From: Nakamurella flava
Lineage (GTDB): Bacteria > Actinomycetota > Actinomycetes > Mycobacteriales > Nakamurellaceae
Direction of reading: 5' to 3'
DNA length: 64,000 nucleotides
Assembly (NCBI RefSeq): GCF_005298075.1
Contig: NZ_SZZH01000004.1
Coordinates: 186,001-250,000, forward strand
The stretch's first letter is position 1; every line of letters starts with the position of its first letter. Below, in pieces: positions 26,366 through 39,743 of this stretch. The position numbers and the translations under genes are program-made. A model generated the notes under the pieces. The model was not told where the DNA came from. It saw nothing but the letters and a program-made list of their open reading frames with translations, and searched no databases.

Positions 26366-26653
26366 ATGCAGGTCCACCTCGTCTGGCACGTCCGGCACCA
26401 CGCCACCGGCGGGCAGGTGGTCCACGCCCGCGACGGTGAGCTGAGCTGGGAAGAGACCGACGGCGACGACGTCAAGCTGCTCGGCGTGTTCAGTACCCGG
26501 GACCGGGCGGACGAACGGATCGCGCTGGCCCGGACCCAGCCGGGCTTCCGGGACGAACCCGACTGTTTCCTGGTCGACGCCTACACCGTGGACCTGCCCG
26601 CCTGGGACGAGGGCTTCGGCCAGTGGATCCCGCAGCGGGCGAGTCAGCCGTAG
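26366..26653 (+). CDS. DUF7336-like small protein
   Basis: 95 residues, soluble. The pattern VKLLGVFSTRDRADERIALARTQPGF and the end YTVDLPAWDEGF (quoted in parts) is that of small actinobacterial proteins with a DUF7336-type domain, function unknown. It overlaps the convergent GAF-regulator gene by 10 bp at their 3' ends. Confidence 0.65.
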   Translation: MQVHLVWHVRHHATGGQVVHARDGELSWEETDGDDVKLLGVFSTRDRADERIALARTQPGFRDEPDCFLVDAYTVDLPAWDEGFGQWIPQRASQP

Positions 26654-27939
26654 AGCCGATCGAGCCGCCGGGCCTCCCCCTCGGCCAGCGGTCGCAGCGG
26701 GGAGTCGGGCGGCAGGATCCGCGCCTGACGCCGCCACATCTCGACGTCGTCGGCCCCCCAGCGGGCCCGCGTCCAGGCCACCATCAGGTCGGCGTCCCCA
26801 CTGGCCAGCACCGCGGACCGGAGCTGCTGCTGCAACTGGTCGCGGCGGTCGACGACGGCGGGCGCCTCCGAACGCGGCAGCAGAGGACCCCGGTAGGCCC
26901 GCAGGGCCGACCGGACGTCGCCGACGGTGAGCCGCGCCGTGACCTCCAACCAGTCGGCCTCGACGGGCACCTGCAGGCGGTAGGGCCGGGACTGCAGCAC
27001 GTCGGGCCCGAGCAGGGACCGCAGCCGGGTCATCTCGGCGCGCACCGTCGACAGGCTGACGTCCTCCGCGTAGGCCTCGACGGCGAGCTGTTCACCGGTG
27101 ACGCCGTCCGGTCGCTCGGCGAGCACGATGAGGATCTCGCTGTGCCGGGAGCTGAGCCGCAGCGACCGGCTGCCGGTGTCGACCTGGCAGTCGGGGCGCC
27201 CCAGGGCGTCGACCCGCAGGCCGACGACGTTCAACGGCGCCCACAGGCCGGCGCTCGTCGTCCGGCCCCGGCCGACCGCGGCCAGCCGGCCGAGTTCGGC
27301 CTCGGCCATCCGGGCCGCGGCCCGCACCATGGCCAGCGTCTGCGGGGTGCCGACCGCGTGACCACCGGTGACGTCCACGACGCCGAGCAGCGTCTGCGTC
27401 TCCGGGTCGTGGATGGGCGCGGCGGCGCACGACCAGTTCTGCACCCGACGGGCGTAATGCTCGCCCGCGCGGATCTGCACGGCGGCGTCCAGGCGCAACG
27501 CGGTGCCGGGCGCGTTCGTGCCGGCCTCCCGCTCGGCCCAGACCGCGCCCTCCATGAAGTGGATCTGTTCGGCCTTGCGCAGCACGCTCGGGCGGCCGCA
27601 GACCCAGAGCAACTTGCCCTCGGCGTCGCCGAGGGCCATCACCGCGTCGCAGTCCTCCGCCGCCGCCCCGAGCACGTCGTAGAGCAACGGGAAGACGCGG
27701 GACAACGGGTGGTCGCTGCGACGATCGGGGATCTCGTCGATGTCGTCGGCGACGGGGGCCACGCCGTCCTCGGCGTCGACGCCGGCCGCGGCGGAGCGCA
27801 TCCAGGAGTCGACCACCAGCGCCCGGCCGGGGGCGTGCTCGACCGGGCGGGACGGTGACCGGACCCCGGCGCCGGACGGACGCCGAGCTGGCGGTCCGTC
27901 CGCCCGGGACGGCGGCCGACGTTCGGGTGGGGCCGACAC
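26644..27939 (-). CDS. GAF-domain transcriptional regulator with winged-helix domain
   Basis: 431 residues from GTG 27939, which has GGAGG nearby; a start at 28005 is also open. An AcoR-type GAF sensor spans about residues 60-230 (EREAGTNAPGTALRLDAAVQIRAGEHYARRVQNWSCAAAPI, in parts). The C-terminal part has a winged-helix unit (LSSRHSEILIVLAERPDGVTGEQLAVEAY, in parts) instead of the sigma-54 activation domain. In actinobacteria these proteins usually sit near alcohol or aldehyde dehydrogenase genes. Here exaC is 4 kb away with a paired TGCA-containing inverted repeat, so control of exaC is a reasonable guess. Confidence 0.8.
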   Translation of the reverse strand: MSAPPERRPPSRADGPPARRPSGAGVRSPSRPVEHAPGRALVVDSWMRSAAAGVDAEDGVAPVADDIDEIPDRRSDHPLSRVFPLLYDVLGAAAEDCDAVMALGDAEGKLLWVCGRPSVLRKAEQIHFMEGAVWAEREAGTNAPGTALRLDAAVQIRAGEHYARRVQNWSCAAAPIHDPETQTLLGVVDVTGGHAVGTPQTLAMVRAAARMAEAELGRLAAVGRGRTTSAGLWAPLNVVGLRVDALGRPDCQVDTGSRSLRLSSRHSEILIVLAERPDGVTGEQLAVEAYAEDVSLSTVRAEMTRLRSLLGPDVLQSRPYRLQVPVEADWLEVTARLTVGDVRSALRAYRGPLLPRSEAPAVVDRRDQLQQQLRSAVLASGDADLMVAWTRARWGADDVEMWRRQARILPPDSPLRPLAEGEARRLDRLYG

Positions 27940-28005
27940 TGGCGCCTCCGAGGGCTGGGGATGTACCCCATTGTGCGGTATGCCACGCCGGGTTGACCCG
28001 CCCAT

Positions 28006-28046: not shown

Positions 28047-28829
28047 TCAGGTCAGCGTGACCGCCCAGAGCGGGGCCGAGGTGGGCTGCGGCGACCCTCC
28101 CGTCGGCTCGGCGGTGATGCCGATGGCCGTGTCACCGGCGCGGGTCGTCGCGGTCCACTCCTGCGACTGGCCGGTCGCGGCCGTGTCGAGCAGGGTCACC
28201 GAGCGGGCCTGGTCGCCGGCCAGCACCCACAACTGGTAGGTGCGACCGGACGGCAACGCGGGCAACCCGCTGACGTCGACGACCGCGGCACCACACGAGG
28301 GCGCGAACCGCACGACCCCGTCGGCGGCGGCCCCCGGGTTCAGGACCCGGGTGTCGGGCGCCGCCGACACGCAGTCGGCCAGCGCCACCTGGGTGTCCGG
28401 AGTGGGGGTGACGGAGCGGACGACCCCGAAGGTGCCGACCGCCAGGACGGCCGCGGCCGCCGCCGCGGTCAGCCAGGCGGCGGGCCGCTGGTACCAGGCC
28501 CGGGCCGCCTTCGCCCGGGCCGGCCCGGCCGGCGCCCGGTGCCGCGCCTGGTCGGCGACGACCGGCGGGAGCTGCGGGGTGCGCCGGGCCGCGGCCAGCA
28601 CGGAGGTGCGCAGCGACGCCGGCGGTGCCTGGGCGAAGGTCGAGCCCAGCAGCGCGACGGTCTCCCGGAAGCCCTGGAGTTCCAGCGCGCAGGACGAGCA
28701 CCCGTCGAGGTGGTCGAGGAAGCGTTCGGCCTCCTCGTCGGACAGCGCGTGCAGGGCCATGGCCCCGGTGTCCAGGTGCGGATCGGTCCCATCGGTCCCG
28801 GTCCGGCCGGGATCAGCGAAGTGGGTCAT
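28047..28829 (-). CDS. rskA: Anti-sigma factor RskA-like
   Basis: 260 residues. The N-terminal anti-sigma domain has the zinc-type motif HLDGCSSC near residues 39-46, a single transmembrane helix follows (AWLTAAAAAAVLAVGTFGVV, about 118-137), and the extracellular C-terminal domain is the RskA type (GLPALPSGRTYQLWVL). It holds the sigma factor inactive until proteolysis releases it. Its start overlaps the sigK stop as ATGA (28826-28829), as in mycobacterial sigK-rskA. Confidence 0.9.
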   Translation of the reverse strand: MTHFADPGRTGTDGTDPHLDTGAMALHALSDEEAERFLDHLDGCSSCALELQGFRETVALLGSTFAQAPPASLRTSVLAAARRTPQLPPVVADQARHRAPAGPARAKAARAWYQRPAAWLTAAAAAAVLAVGTFGVVRSVTPTPDTQVALADCVSAAPDTRVLNPGAAADGVVRFAPSCGAAVVDVSGLPALPSGRTYQLWVLAGDQARSVTLLDTAATGQSQEWTATTRAGDTAIGITAEPTGGSPQPTSAPLWAVTLT

Positions 28830-29473
28830 GACGCCACCCCCAGGCAGTCGCGCAGCCGGATGAGGCCGTCGCGGAGTCGTGTCTTGACGGTGGGCAGCGG
28901 CGTGGAGAGCAATTCGGCCACCTCCCGGTAGGTGTATCCGCTGTAGTAGGCCAACGTGATGGATTCACGTTGGCGGTCGGTGAGCGTGCCCAGGCATCGC
29001 TGGACGGCCCGCCGTTCGAAGCGCTGCTCGACCTCCTCGACGACGGTGTCGACGTCGCGCTCGGTGGTGGCGGCGGCGACCCGTACCTCGCGATCGGTGG
29101 CCGCCTGCGCCGACCGGACCCGGTCGACGGCCCGGGCGTGGGCCAGGGTGAGGACCCAGCCGGTGGCCGAGCCCCGACTCTCGTCGAACCGACTGGCCCG
29201 TCGCCAGACCTCCAGGAACACCTCCTGGGCCACCTCCTCGGCCTGGCCGGGGTCGCGGACGACCCGCCGGACCAGCCCGAACACGCGGGACGCGAACAGG
29301 TCGTAGAACCGTTCGAAGGCGTCCTCGTCGCCGCGGGCGACCCGTTGCAGCAGGACCTCGGCCTCACCGCCCTGGGACCGGCCGTCGCGCTGCCGGACGC
29401 CGGAGTCGGCGGGACCGGGGTCGGGCACCGCGGCGAGCGCGGGCCTGTCCGGTTCGTGAGCGGGTGATGGCAT
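28826..29473 (-). CDS. sigK: ECF sigma factor SigK-like
   Basis: 215 residues from ATG 29473, with AAGGAGG eight bases upstream; the longer frame from 29494 lacks this. Region 2 (AFERFYDLFASRVFGLVRRVVRDPGQAEEVAQEVFLEVW, in parts) and region 4 (LTDRQRESITLAYYSGYTYREVAELLSTPLPTVKTRLRDGL, in parts) match the SigK/RskA group. The pair with RskA and the fasciclin lipoprotein 2 kb away mirrors the mycobacterial SigK regulon. Its own promoter (29554-29581) fits the SigK consensus, implying autoregulation. Confidence 0.9.
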   Translation of the reverse strand: MPSPAHEPDRPALAAVPDPGPADSGVRQRDGRSQGGEAEVLLQRVARGDEDAFERFYDLFASRVFGLVRRVVRDPGQAEEVAQEVFLEVWRRASRFDESRGSATGWVLTLAHARAVDRVRSAQAATDREVRVAAATTERDVDTVVEEVEQRFERRAVQRCLGTLTDRQRESITLAYYSGYTYREVAELLSTPLPTVKTRLRDGLIRLRDCLGVAS

Positions 29474-29553: not shown

Positions 29554-29581
29554 CATTCGTCGCCGACCGCGACCCGGATGG
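29554..29581 (-). promoter_or_regulatory. SigK-type promoter of sigK-rskA
   Basis: On the minus strand CCATCC (29581-29576), a 16-bp spacer and CGAATG (29559-29554). This fits the mycobacterial SigK consensus CCATCC / CGAATA with one mismatch. The start of transcription would be about 75 nt before the sigK start codon. The rest of the 29474-29776 gap holds this and the divergent promoter. Confidence 0.7.
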
Positions 29582-29742
29582 GCGGTGTCGGTGTGGTCGT
29601 GGCGAACCGTGGGCATCGAGCGGATGTCGTCGACCTCCGAATGACGGGCGTCCGTGGAGCTCCCACCCCGCGCACCCCTCGAGACGGTGACAGCGATCGG
29701 GACCGCCGCCGGCGACTCCGGGTCACGACCACCCGTTCGATC

Positions 29743-29770
29743 CCATCCGGACACCCGCCCGCATCGAAGG
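29743..29770 (+). promoter_or_regulatory. SigK-type promoter of the molybdopterin oxidoreductase
   Basis: CCATCC (29743-29748), 16-bp spacer, CGAAGG (29765-29770). The -10 element ends six bases before ATG 29777, so the transcript would be leaderless or nearly so. Same spacing as the sigK promoter. Confidence 0.6.
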
Positions 29771-29776
29771 ACCCAC

Positions 29777-31390
29777 ATGAACACCGACAGCCTCACGACC
29801 CCCGGTGCCCCCGCCCGCGAACCGTCCACCTGGCGGCCCGGTGTGGGCGTCGCCGCGCTCGGCGGCCTGGTGTCCATCGGGCTCGGGCTGGCGTTGGCCG
29901 AGCTGCTGGCCGTGCTCGGCGGCCGACTGTCGCTGACCGGCGCGGCGGCCTCGCCGCTGACCTCGCTCGGCCAGTCGTTCATCGGCCTCACGCCGGAGTG
30001 GCTCAAGCAGTTCGCCATCTCGACGTTCGGGCAGAACGACAAGGTCGCGCTGACCGTCGGCATGGGGGTGACGGTCGCGATCGCCGCCGCCGTCATCGGC
30101 ATCGTCGCGCGGTGGCGGCTGACCGTCGCCGTCGTCGTGGCGGCCGCCCTGCTGGTGGTGGCCGGCATCGCGATCCTGACGCGCACCGGTTCCGGACCGG
30201 TCGATCTGCTGCCGCTGGTCATCGGCGGGGTGGCCGGCGTCGCGCTGCTCATCACCCTGTTCCGCCGGGCCGGCGACCCTGAGGCTGCGCTGACCGGTGA
30301 GGTGCACAGCGGGTCCGGTGGCCGCGCCGACCGCCGCCGCTTTCTGCAGTGGGCGGGCATCGGCGCAGCGGGTGCCGCCGTGGCCGGTGTGGCCGCCAGG
30401 TTCCTGCCCAACTCGGCCCAGTCCGCGGCGAGCCGCGGGTCCATCACGCTCCCGACGCCCACGGACGTCCAGCAGATCGCGTCGGACGTGGCGCTCGACG
30501 TCCCGGGACTCACCCCGTTCGTCACCGACAACGCCAACTTCTATCGCGTGGACACCGCGTTCGTCGTCCCGCAACTGACCACGCAGGGATGGCAGCTGCG
30601 TATCCACGGCCTGGTCGATCGCGAGATCACCCTCGACTTCGACGCGTTGACCGGGCGTCCCGCCCTGCAGCGGATGATCACCTTGACCTGTGTCTCGAAC
30701 CCGGTCGGCGGCGACCTGGCCGGTAACGCCACCTGGCAGGGTGTGCGCCTGGCCGACCTGCTGGCCGAAGCCGGCCCCCAGGACGGCGCCGACTGCGTGC
30801 TGTCGACGAGTGTCGACGGCTTCACCGTCACCACTCCCCTGGCCGCCCTGACCGACGGCCGGGACGCCCTGCTCGCCTACGCCATGAACGGCGAACCACT
30901 GCCGGTGGAGCACGGGTTCCCCGTGCGGATGGTCGTTCCCGGTCTGTACGGCTACGTCTCGGCGACGAAGTGGGTGGTCGATCTCGAGGTCACGAAGTTC
31001 GCGGACGTCAGCGCCTACTGGACCGACCGGGGCTGGGCGGCGCAGGCGCCGATCAAGACGGCGTCCCGCATCGACGTGCCCGCCTCGTTCGCCAACCTGC
31101 CCGTCGGCACGGTGACCGTGGCGGGAGTGGCCTGGGCCCAGCACCGCGGCGTCGCCAAGGTGCAGGTCCGGGTGGACAAGGGCGAGTGGCAGGACGCGAC
31201 GCTGTCCGGTGACGTGAGTGTCGACACCTGGCGGCAGTGGGAGTGGCAGTGGCCGGCCGACCGCGGCCAGCACACCATCGAGTGCCGCGCCATCGATGGC
31301 AACGGCGACGCCCAGGCCGAGCAGGTCGTCGGCACAGTACCCGACGGAGCGACCGGACTGGATTCGCGCGTCGTCACGGTGACCGTCTGA
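29777..31390 (+). CDS. Membrane-anchored molybdopterin-dependent oxidoreductase (SUOX/YedY-like)
   Basis: 537 residues. The N-terminal 155 residues form about four hydrophobic helices, then [20 protein letters not shown] (about 175-195) resembles a Tat motif placed internally. The periplasmic domain is a sulfite-oxidase-type molybdenum fold: Cys305 in [12 protein letters not shown] is the expected molybdenum ligand, followed by GVRLADLL and a C-terminal Mo-co dimerisation-like immunoglobulin domain ([22 protein letters not shown], in parts). It probably reduces or oxidises small S- or N-oxides at the membrane. Linkage to sigK-rskA and the shared promoter type place it in the SigK regulon. Confidence 0.85.
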
Positions 31391-31473
31391 CCCGCTCGAC
31401 GGCCGCTGGACGTACCCCGTCGTTCGTTCGGACCCACCTGACCAATTCGTTACGAAATTTCCTGCCTACGCAC

Positions 31474-31501
31474 CAATCCGCCTGGGTACGTGCACCGAAG
31501 A
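31474..31501 (+). promoter_or_regulatory. SigK-type promoter of the fasciclin lipoprotein
   Basis: CAATCC (31474-31479), 16-bp spacer, CGAAGA (31496-31501): one mismatch to each half of the SigK consensus and the same spacing as the two other promoters. The gap 31391-31632 also has a small palindrome TTCGTTACGAA at 31456-31466 and a leader of about 120 nt. Confidence 0.6.
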
Positions 31502-31632: not shown

Positions 31633-32385
31633 ATGGCCTTCAAGCGCACCGCAGGACTCATCGCCGCCGCCGGCACCTGCCTCGTCCTCGCCGCCTGTGG
31701 TGGCGGAGCCGGCTCCGCCGTCTCCAGCGCCACCTCCGCGGCCGGGAGCGTCGCGAACGGCGCGACCTCCGCCGCCGGCAGCATGACGTCGGCCGCCGGC
31801 AGTGCCATGTCGAGCATGACGTCTTCCTCGCCGTCGTCCTCGTCGGCGATGGCTTCCGGCTCCATGAGCTCCGGCGCGATGGCCGAGGGTGCGAGCCTGG
31901 TCGGCCCGGGTTGCGCCGACTACGCCGCCGCGGTTCCGTCCGGCGCCGGCTCCGTCGAGGGCATGGCCGCCGATCCGGTCGCCACCGCCGCCTCCAACAA
32001 CCCGCTGCTGAAGACCCTGACCGCGGCCGTCTCCGGACAGCTCAACCCGCAGGTCAACCTGGTCAACACCCTCAACGGCGGCGAGTTCACCGTCTTCGCC
32101 CCGGTCGACGAGGCCTTCGCCAAGGTGCCCGCCGCCACGCTCGAGACGCTGAAGACCGACTCCGCCACGCTGACCAGCATCCTGACCTACCACGTGGTGT
32201 CCGGGCAGCTGTCCCCGGACCAGGTCGTCGGTGAGCACACCACCGTCGAGGGCAAGACGCTGACCGTGACCGGCTCCGGCGACTCGCTGAAGGTCAACGA
32301 CGCGAACGTCATCTGCGGTGGCGTCAAGACCGCCAACGCGACCGTCTACCTGATCGACGGTGTGCTGACCCCGCCGGCCAGCTGA
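31633..32385 (+). CDS. Fasciclin-domain lipoprotein, MPT70/MPT83-like
   Basis: 250 residues. Signal peptide with lipobox LAAC (Cys22), then an Ala/Ser/Gly/Met-rich linker (about 25-90), then one FAS1 domain (about 105-248): [63 protein letters not shown] (in parts). The extended [17 protein letters not shown] start is shared with mycobacterial MPT83/MPT70. There, these are major SigK-dependent surface proteins, and here the gene lies beside sigK-rskA with a SigK-type promoter. AGGAGAG precedes ATG 31633. The linker length may vary. Confidence 0.92.
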
Positions 32386-33632: not shown

Positions 33633-34628
33633 TCAGCCGCCGGTCGTCCCCCGTCGGGCCCGGGCGCGACGCTTCCCCTCGTGCATCGCGGCGACCCGGG
33701 CCACCGGGATGGTGTGCCCCTCGGCGACGATCTCGGCCGGGACGAGCTGCGGCGGCGGCCGCTCATCCCGCCAGGGATCGGCCGCGGCCAGGCGCTTCGG
33801 CACGACGTCGACGGTCAGGTCCGACACCCGGCCGACCGCGTCGAGCTCGAGCCAGGACAGCGGGCAGGAGACGGGTACTCCGGGGCGGACCCGTGGGCTG
33901 TAGGCGGCGATCACGGTGGCGCCGCGGGACCGTGTGGCGTCGACGAAGATCCGGCCGCCCCGGTCGGCGACGATGTACTCGGTGGTGGACAGCCCGGGAG
34001 CCAGCGCAGCGGCCCGCACGGCCAGGGCCCGGGTAGCGGCCGCGGCGTCGTCGCTGCTCAGGGCGTCCGTCCCGGCCGTCTGGAGCGGGACGACGAGGTG
34101 GAGCCCCTTGGACCCGCTGGTCTTCACCGCCGCGTCCAGTCCGACGTCGGCCAGCGCCTGCCGCGCGGCGCGGGCGACGACCACGACGTCGGCGAACTCC
34201 GCCCCGGCCGGCGGATCGAGGTCCAGCACCAGGGCATCCGGAGGCGCGGCCTGCGGGTCGTGCCCCCGGTGGAGCGGCACGTGGAACTCGACGGACCGCT
34301 GGTTGCCCAGCCACAGCAGCGTCCGCCGGTCGTCGACGACCGGATACCGCACCTGCCGGTGGGAGGCCTCCGACCAGACGGTGATGGTGGGGATCCAGTC
34401 CGGGGCGTACTCGGGCAGGTTCTTCTGCATGAACGCGGGCTGCCCCGGGCGGACCCGGACGACCGACAACGGCCGACCGGTGAGCTCACCGATCAGCCGG
34501 TCGGCCATCACGTCCAGGTAGTCGATCAGCTCTCGCTTGGTGACCCCGGTATCACCGGACAGCGGTTGGTCGAGCGAAGAGAGCTCGACCCCGCCGCGGG
34601 TCTCGTCGGGCGCGCGCCGGGCGCTCAC
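33633..34628 (-). CDS. Stand-alone LigD-type primase/polymerase domain
   Basis: 331 residues, only the polymerase (PolDom) part of LigD. The catalytic aspartates are in ALVLDLDPP (about 131-139) and the third in SWLELD; TSGSKGLHLVVPLQ (about 167-180) is the conserved nucleotide-binding segment. In mycobacteria LigD fills ends during non-homologous end joining, and stand-alone Prim-PolD proteins act in lesion bypass or repair. Neither Ku nor a ligase domain is in the window, so the pathway is inferred. Confidence 0.85.
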   Translation of the reverse strand: MSARRAPDETRGGVELSSLDQPLSGDTGVTKRELIDYLDVMADRLIGELTGRPLSVVRVRPGQPAFMQKNLPEYAPDWIPTITVWSEASHRQVRYPVVDDRRTLLWLGNQRSVEFHVPLHRGHDPQAAPPDALVLDLDPPAGAEFADVVVVARAARQALADVGLDAAVKTSGSKGLHLVVPLQTAGTDALSSDDAAAATRALAVRAAALAPGLSTTEYIVADRGGRIFVDATRSRGATVIAAYSPRVRPGVPVSCPLSWLELDAVGRVSDLTVDVVPKRLAAADPWRDERPPPQLVPAEIVAEGHTIPVARVAAMHEGKRRARARRGTTGG

Positions 34629-38663: not shown

Positions 38664-39743
38664 ATGAGGGCCTGGGCTCGCAATTTATTGAAATGGCCAG
38701 CAGTCGCCAGCCTGCTGGTCAACCATGTATTCAATCAACTGGGCGGCACCCTGGCAGCAGTCGCTGCGCTGGCGTGGCTCGCGGTTCGAGAGCCGCGCCA
38801 CTGGGCAGACATTGCGGCGGGCACGCCGGCATCCACATTCCCCCGGTGGGTTTTCGACTACGGCGCCCGGCTACTGTGGGCCGCAGCAGCCATCACCGTC
38901 GGCCTGCGGGTCAACGAAACCAGCGACCTTTTGTGGGCCGTCCCGGTGGTCATCTGCGCCGCGTACATCATCTTGAACGACCCCACCCACGGGTTCTGGA
39001 CCCGCGCCGCGACCATCTCGGTCGGCCTAGCCATTGTGGCGACCACAACCGTAGCATTCGACGCCATTCGAGCACTTATCGACCGTCTCGAATCAATTGA
39101 CGCCACCTGGTCCGGATTGAGCGTGGCGATCATGACAGCAGGCATGACACTCGTCGGCGGATATTTGATTCTGTTCCGCGCCTCACCCCGAGTCGTGCTC
39201 ACACTGATTGGTACACCTTTCGCCATTGCCGGCGCGGTGTCCACCACCCTCGCCGCACTGGAAGCAAACGGATCCACCCCATCCTCGACGATATGGGGCA
39301 CGAATGATCATCACTTCGCGGGGATATTCACCATCGCGGGTGGCGCAGGGATGGTGTTCCTTGCCTTGGCCGTTGTCGCTCACCGGCGGTCTGTACAGAA
39401 CCATGCCAGTTTTTGCGTCGCCGCACTCTTGGCCGGGGGCGTCACGACCTGGGTAGCGGGCCTCCAACAGTTCGCCGTGGCGACCACTGCTGCGTCGCTC
39501 GCTCTGGGACTCGCACTATCGGTGACCCTGACGAGCCGGCGGGCGCGACTGGTCTTCACCTCGGTACTGCTCGGCGCCTCACTCCTGGTTGCGTTAATCC
39601 CTCTGTGCGTCAGTGCATCGCAGGACACGCCATTGCTCGCCTCGTCCCCCGTCGTCGGCGGCGTCGCGGTCCTCACGGTCGTCACGACAGTTGGATGGAA
39701 GGTCCATTCGATGACCGACGCGGACATCGCCGCGATGCCATGA
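38664..39743 (+). CDS. Polytopic membrane protein of unknown function
   Basis: 359 residues with about nine to ten hydrophobic segments and no recognised family. Charged loops are short; the end KVHSMTDADIAAMP is cytosolic by charge. Codon use is visibly less GC-rich than in neighbours (several ATT, TTT, TTA and GGA codons), which together with the AT-rich upstream region suggests recent transfer. It has its own promoter and a ribosome site GGGAGG before ATG 38664. No partner gene is adjacent. Confidence 0.75.
   Translation: MRAWARNLLKWPAVASLLVNHVFNQLGGTLAAVAALAWLAVREPRHWADIAAGTPASTFPRWVFDYGARLLWAAAAITVGLRVNETSDLLWAVPVVICAAYIILNDPTHGFWTRAATISVGLAIVATTTVAFDAIRALIDRLESIDATWSGLSVAIMTAGMTLVGGYLILFRASPRVVLTLIGTPFAIAGAVSTTLAALEANGSTPSSTIWGTNDHHFAGIFTIAGGAGMVFLALAVVAHRRSVQNHASFCVAALLAGGVTTWVAGLQQFAVATTAASLALGLALSVTLTSRRARLVFTSVLLGASLLVALIPLCVSASQDTPLLASSPVVGGVAVLTVVTTVGWKVHSMTDADIAAMP

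Follow-up and report, generated by a model that had tools for sequence, protein, structure and literature searches.

The stretch of DNA analysed here, 64,000 nt in length and referred to below as the window, carries the genes sigK and rskA, a gene for a molybdopterin oxidoreductase of the sulfite-oxidase fold and a gene for an MPT70/MPT83-like fasciclin lipoprotein, together with three predicted SigK-type promoters (Table 1). A GAF-domain regulator gene (26644-28005, minus strand; Pfam GAF) adjoins rskA, and further along the product encoded at 33633-34628 (minus strand) resembles by eye a LigD-type polymerase domain.

Table 1. Genes, predicted promoters and protein segments of the sigK locus, in window coordinates
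Feature	Position	Strand	Details
rskA, anti-sigma factor	28047..28829	-	overlaps the sigK stop; Pfam RskA_C 78.7 bits, zf-HC2 24.3 bits
sigK, ECF sigma factor	28826..29473	-	ATG at 29473 behind AAGGAGGA; Cys160/Cys210 aligned to the cysteine pair of M. tuberculosis SigK
sigK-rskA SigK-type promoter	29554-29581	-	CCATCC-N16-CGAATG; -35 CCATCC 29576-29581; -10 CGAATG 29554-29559; predicted leader ~74 nt
Oxidoreductase SigK-type promoter	29743-29770	+	CCATCC-N16-CGAAGG; -35 CCATCC 29743-29748; -10 CGAAGG 29765-29770; ATG 6 nt beyond; predicted leaderless
Molybdopterin oxidoreductase, sulfite-oxidase fold, 537 aa	29777..31390	+	Pfam PF00174 150 bits (scored without the first codon); model pLDDT 89.7; Foldseek
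Fasciclin lipoprotein SigK-type promoter	31474-31501	+	CAATCC-N16-CGAAGA; -35 CAATCC 31474-31479; -10 CGAAGA 31496-31501; predicted leader ~125 nt
MPT70/MPT83-like fasciclin lipoprotein, 250 aa	31633..32385	+	Pfam Fasciclin 99.5 bits; lipobox LAAC ending at residue 22
Methionine-enriched Ser/Ala linker of the lipoprotein	31699..31902	+	6 Met in 68 residues

The sigK product is placed in the SigK (ECF18/19) group by the model NCBIfam NF007228 (285 bits, cut-off 226 bits), and its nearest solved chain is M. tuberculosis SigK (4nqw). C160 and C210 both align with cysteines of that chain (133 and 183 in M. tuberculosis numbering) and are at least 90% conserved as a pair among 19 sequences; according to passages in PMC7509140, the paired SigK cysteines are important for redox coupling in M. 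tuberculosis. The rskA product belongs to the RskA family by its RskA_C domain, its hydrophobic membrane segment and the adjacency of its gene to sigK. It has the motif H40-x3-C44-x2-C47 ahead of a single hydrophobic segment, delimited by hydropathy only, and Cys153 and Cys179 after it. Exactly two cysteines past this segment are found in the window (28293-28373) and at all 12 genus loci, and such cysteines are absent from all six other loci of the order and from 71 of 75 loci in a set of named SigK relatives. This set holds the best 80 of 588 relatives and favours close relatives of SigK; it is called the best-80 set below.

Searching the window with the strict motif CMATCC-N16-CGAAKR gives four matches, compared with a mean of 0.04 and a largest value of 1 in 100 dinucleotide shuffles. 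Three of these are the promoters of Table 1, whose letters, positions and 16-bp spacers, as given in an earlier note on this DNA, were borne out and exceed chance. The fourth (39279-39306, plus strand) lies within an ORF without a Pfam match (38664-39743) and is taken as a chance occurrence. The whole 4.84-Mb genome contains ten strict matches, and one match to the reversed pattern, a weak control in which the words are changed. At the shuffle rate of the window about three matches are expected per genome, so that isolated matches mean little and three inside 2 kb mean much; with about three of the ten attributable to chance, the evidence lies in position and conservation and not in mere occurrence. 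The genome matches at C1:934963, C1:1518508, C3:142520 and C5:29486 are not claimed, as they fall inside ORFs or have no clear gene downstream. The strict pattern is present in 16 of 17 genus genomes, with many matches away from the sigK locus; one genome that has sigK (G059) contains none.

Relatives were scored against the 10-base core CMATCC-N16-CGAA. The -10 element proposed in the earlier note, CGAAKR, was too narrow, as CGAA is followed in the relatives by any of the four bases. The 16-bp spacer is found at all three window sites, as that note says, and in most relatives; the spacer before the oxidoreductase is 15 bp in L075 and 17 bp in L080 and L104.

The site upstream of sigK matches the core completely in the window, at 12 of 12 genus loci, at five of six other loci of the order, and at 40 of 79 loci in the best-80 set, where a further nine score 9/10. 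Order-level counts here and below rest on 60 oxidoreductase regions fetched out of more than 100 matches listed; 18 of the 60 hold sigK. The region upstream of rskA, taken as a control, has a complete core in 1 of 96 cases and a 9/10 site in two more. For 30 of the 79 sigK genes of the best-80 set, the stretch searched has no site at 9/10 or 10/10, and some of their starts are perhaps misjudged. With a SigK-type site before sigK at all 12 genus loci, autoregulation of sigK-rskA, implied in the earlier note, is likely. The conservation of SigK sites outside mycobacteria has already been published (PMC7509140, in a passage citing Veyrier 2008).

The predicted oxidoreductase comprises hydrophobic N-terminal helices, a twin-arginine segment (R186-R187), a Moco domain with Cys305 and a C-terminal beta domain. 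SorA and sulfite oxidase are its closest relatives in both fold and sequence. The protein scores below the cut-offs of the sulfite dehydrogenase models (SoxC, 117 vs 420 bits; SorA, 105 vs 600 bits; SorT, 74.5 vs 570 bits) and of the MsrP model (55.8 vs 207 bits). We compared it with SorA at Arg55, His57, Arg109 and Tyr236, which we take to be the catalytic positions, the numbering of His57 and Arg109 being likewise assumed; the variants R55M and Y236F are named in PDB titles. Arg55 is kept, His57 aligns with an invariant Asp259, Tyr236 aligns with an invariant Trp420, and Arg109 lands in a stretch that is absent from the oxidoreductase family. Since only one of the four active-site positions is kept, sulfite is no obvious substrate of this enzyme.

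The oxidoreductase is detected in 92 of 121 genomes of the order. In the best-80 set, 20 of the 80 SigK loci hold it within 8 kb, 23 hold a fasciclin gene and 18 hold both; judged by gene neighbourhood, the molybdopterin oxidoreductase is a recurrent gene of SigK cassettes. A site was called leaderless when it scored at least 9/10, had a spacer of 15-17 bp and was followed by an in-frame ATG or GTG 5-8 nt beyond the -10 element. Such a site precedes 36 of 81 oxidoreductase copies. It is found in 32 of the 49 copies with sigK or a fasciclin gene in the fetched stretch, compared with four of the 32 others, which bear it even so, and with 6 of 1620 shuffled stretches. From the -10 element to the start codon there are 6 nt in 34 of the 36 copies and 7 nt in two, though 5-8 nt were allowed, and the window copy also starts 6 nt past its -10 hexamer (ATG at 29777). 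Transcription is thereby expected to begin at the start codon itself, so the oxidoreductase promoter looks leaderless and the mRNA start can be predicted to the base. The attribution of the oxidoreductase to the SigK regulon, made in the earlier note, thus finds support in its own conserved promoter and in linkage in several genera. Among the best-80 loci, only 4 of 13 oxidoreductase genes that follow sigK in the same orientation carry a leaderless site of their own; cotranscription, which we assume, would be a likely explanation for such copies without a site, for example those behind rskA on the same strand (Actinoplanes, L176). Other ECF factors of the genome could read similar words. Tandem oxidoreductase pairs occur in L072, L073 and L081, with a leaderless site on one copy only.

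The lipoprotein aligns with MPT70 (1nyo) over residues 88-249 with an E-value of 4.5e-67, which places it among the MPT70/MPT83 fasciclin proteins. Its SigK site is perfect in the window, as the earlier note had it, but less well conserved than the other two: with starts estimated roughly, a complete core is found in only 5 of 10 genus copies, 2 of 12 order copies and 3 of 22 copies from the best-80 set. The linker behind the lipobox is rich in methionine, with 66 Met in 527 residues for eight genus linkers, 21 in 341 for ten order linkers and 29 in 568 for sixteen linkers of the best-80 set, against a background of 1.4% Met in SigK, RskA and the oxidoreductase. Excluded from this count are eight linkers in which the lipobox or the second motif was not recognised (genus 1, order 1, best-80 set 6) and fasciclin hits below 110 bits. 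Across the 2.48 Mb of fetched DNA, counted with its overlaps, a single rule applied to every lipoprotein gave 131 Met in 1653 residues for 42 fasciclin linkers (three had none), compared with one Met in 596 residues for 17 other linkers (Mann-Whitney p 2e-8, for homologues that are not independent). The 17 controls were obtained under looser rules; the first, stricter rules gave two.

The earlier note described the three sites as defining a compact regulon, and neither word is supported, as further sites lie beyond the window. The genome scan that it proposed returned the ten strict matches described above. Sites before a sortase gene, an Nramp transporter gene and UfaD/UfaO-like operons indicate that the regulon extends beyond the window. 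A search for the leaderless form across the genus gives 22 matches in 13 of 17 genomes, six of them at oxidoreductase genes; several others open short frames only. The four matches in the genome under study are the oxidoreductase, the sortase (C1:306683), the Nramp gene (C1:306760) and C1:626760, which is left uninterpreted and not claimed. The sortase and Nramp sites are perfect and divergent, lying between the two genes (G000:C1:306683-306796). Their support among relatives is modest: the sortase site is complete in 2 of 21 matches and scores 9/10 in three, and among 15 Nramp loci of the genus it is complete in two, at 9/10 in four and missing from nine, where shuffles reach 9 in 32 of 900 cases. 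A relative of the sortase sits in the sigK locus of a genus member (L071).

Fatty-acid genes form another group of candidate targets. Genes for a FAD oxidoreductase and a DUF1365 protein stand beside sigK in 10 of 80 loci of the best-80 set, mostly with CMAS and DUF1295 genes. Judged by domain, these proteins resemble UfaD, UfaO (DUF1365) and UfaM of the furan-fatty-acid pathway of R. sphaeroides described in passages of PMC7380195. A complete site precedes the FAD gene in 9 of these 10 loci, compared with 0 of 12 for the DUF1365 gene as a control. DUF1365 is found in 12 of 17 genus genomes, and a site scoring 9 or 10 of 10 precedes 9 of the 12 FAD genes examined in the genus (three of these sites being 10/10), where shuffles reach 9 in 17 of 1200 cases; the three without a site are preceded on their strand by CMAS and DUF1295 genes. 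In the genus, 7 of the 11 closest orthologs of the CMAS-type methyltransferases have a 9- or 10-of-10 site, compared with 0 of 9 paralogs. The genome under study has a one-mismatch site before its UfaD/UfaO-like operon (CCATCT-N16-CGAATC, 9/10, at the FAD gene), and its own CMAS gene (L299) has no SigK-type site.

Taken together, these data make it very probable that the locus is the core of a SigK-RskA regulon, with CMATCC-N16-CGAA promoters for sigK-rskA, the leaderless oxidoreductase and the fasciclin lipoprotein; the identity of the promoters and the inclusion of the oxidoreductase are drawn from sequence comparison. We propose that the membrane anti-sigma factor RskA would hold SigK until an envelope signal frees it, after which RNA polymerase would start at the CMATCC-N16-CGAA promoters. 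One of these promoters would drive sigK-rskA and thereby autoregulation, another a membrane-anchored and probably Tat-exported oxidoreductase from a leaderless mRNA beginning directly at its start codon, and the third the lipid-anchored fasciclin protein. The regulon products would act outside the membrane, most likely guarding the envelope against oxidants. The conserved promoter signature before the molybdenum enzyme and, in relatives, before protective fatty-acid genes suggests that SigK/RskA defends the envelope against oxidation.

That the sites are chance words in GC-rich DNA is extremely improbable in view of their clustering, position and conservation, even with about three matches per genome expected at the shuffle rate. 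We also consider it unlikely that the oxidoreductase is an ordinary sulfite dehydrogenase that neighbours sigK by accident: SorA and sulfite oxidase are nearest to it in fold and sequence, but Arg55 alone is kept among the four SorA positions, and the gene has its own conserved promoter and cross-genus linkage to sigK. Copper or metal handling, with the linker binding Cu(I), Nramp taking part in a metal response and the oxidoreductase incidental, would fit the methionine-rich linker and the Nramp sites, perfect in the genome under study and found at 9/10 or better in six genus loci. Since nine of the 15 genus Nramp loci have no site and the fatty-acid genes are left unexplained, we regard it as quite improbable.

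Compatible with the SigK-RskA core regulon, and tentatively possible as its purpose, is an envelope defence against singlet oxygen and photo-oxidation that works like RpoE-ChrR of Rhodobacter. SigK would then run furan-fatty-acid genes, a Met-rich lipoprotein that soaks up oxidants and a molybdoenzyme that acts on oxidised sulfur. The UfaD-like FAD and DUF1365 genes beside sigK and the sites before FAD genes in both the best-80 set and the genus argue for this function. Passages of PMC7074977 report that cfaS, RSP_1090/91 and a fasciclin belong to the RpoE regulon of R. sphaeroides, and that RpoE-ChrR of R. capsulatus is nearer to SigK-RskA; elsewhere, parts of the published record describe the removal of the R. 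sphaeroides furan fatty acid by singlet oxygen exposure (PMC7380195) and the induction of mpk83/mpk70 by light in M. kansasii (PMC9861118). However, M. tuberculosis SigK-RskA is described in PMC7509140 as stabilised by oxidation, with SigK freed by reduction, which is the opposite of simple activation by an oxidant. The CMAS gene without a site and the 9/10 site of the FAD gene in the genome under study also weigh against it, as does the homology to the Rhodobacter Ufa proteins being judged by domain. A bolder version is rather doubtful: SigK-RskA would be the envelope singlet-oxygen response of actinomycetes, comprising furan-fatty-acid enzymes, a sacrificial Met-rich lipoprotein, a sulfur-recycling molybdoenzyme of new specificity and, in this genus, a two-cysteine extracytoplasmic switch in RskA that senses the envelope directly. 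If it were true, the poorly understood trigger of MPT70/MPT83 expression would be photo-oxidation; for SigK-RskA, PMC9861118 notes that the environmental stimuli 'remain obscure'.

The mpt83-sigK-rskA cassette and its conserved SigK sites are already published. The locus shares with the mycobacterial SigK regulon the SigK and RskA families, the SigK cysteine pair, the MPT83-like lipoprotein and the sites before sigK and the lipoprotein gene, and adds the molybdopterin oxidoreductase with its leaderless-type promoter and the Met-rich linker. Its RskA keeps the Hx3Cx2C motif and has two extracytoplasmic cysteines, whereas a passage of PMC7406223 describes M. tuberculosis RskA as not reliant on such a motif. 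In gene content, the only aspect compared, it resembles RpoE-ChrR of Rhodobacter in combining an ECF factor and its cognate anti-sigma factor with fasciclin and Ufa-type fatty-acid targets (passages in PMC7074977 and PMC7380195), although the ChrR of R. sphaeroides shares just 13% identity with the RskA-like one of R. capsulatus, according to PMC7074977. The BcrS-AbcS/BcrXQP system of Brucella and yedYZ-mrpX of Azospira, as outlined in parts of PMC8315932, likewise place an ECF factor over a Met-rich sacrificial protein and a sulfite-oxidase-family enzyme; here, in contrast, the enzyme is nearer to SorA than to MsrP and the methionines sit in a lipoprotein linker. The sulfite dehydrogenases SorA, SorT and SoxC have the same fold and Moco cysteine, whereas the present enzyme does not keep three of four compared active-site positions and has an N-terminal hydrophobic domain.

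Newer here are the leaderless oxidoreductase, the Met-rich lipoprotein linker, the two extracytoplasmic cysteines of RskA in the genus and the RpoE-ChrR-like gene set. Among the literature matches listed, none connects this oxidoreductase or furan fatty acids with SigK, and an earlier mention is possible; PMC7074977 contains both SigK and furan fatty acids, the latter in its reference list only. The core SigK regulon would be extended by a molybdoenzyme, and a class of leaderless SigK transcripts is predicted to the base. The conserved neighbours and promoters provide a testable proposal for the signal, namely envelope oxidation, with singlet oxygen as the first candidate.

A Ser/Pro-rich protein of a genus relative (L269:766-1503, minus strand), taken by eye for an FMN-binding protein until Pfam gave nothing, is also encoded behind a perfect leaderless SigK-type site.
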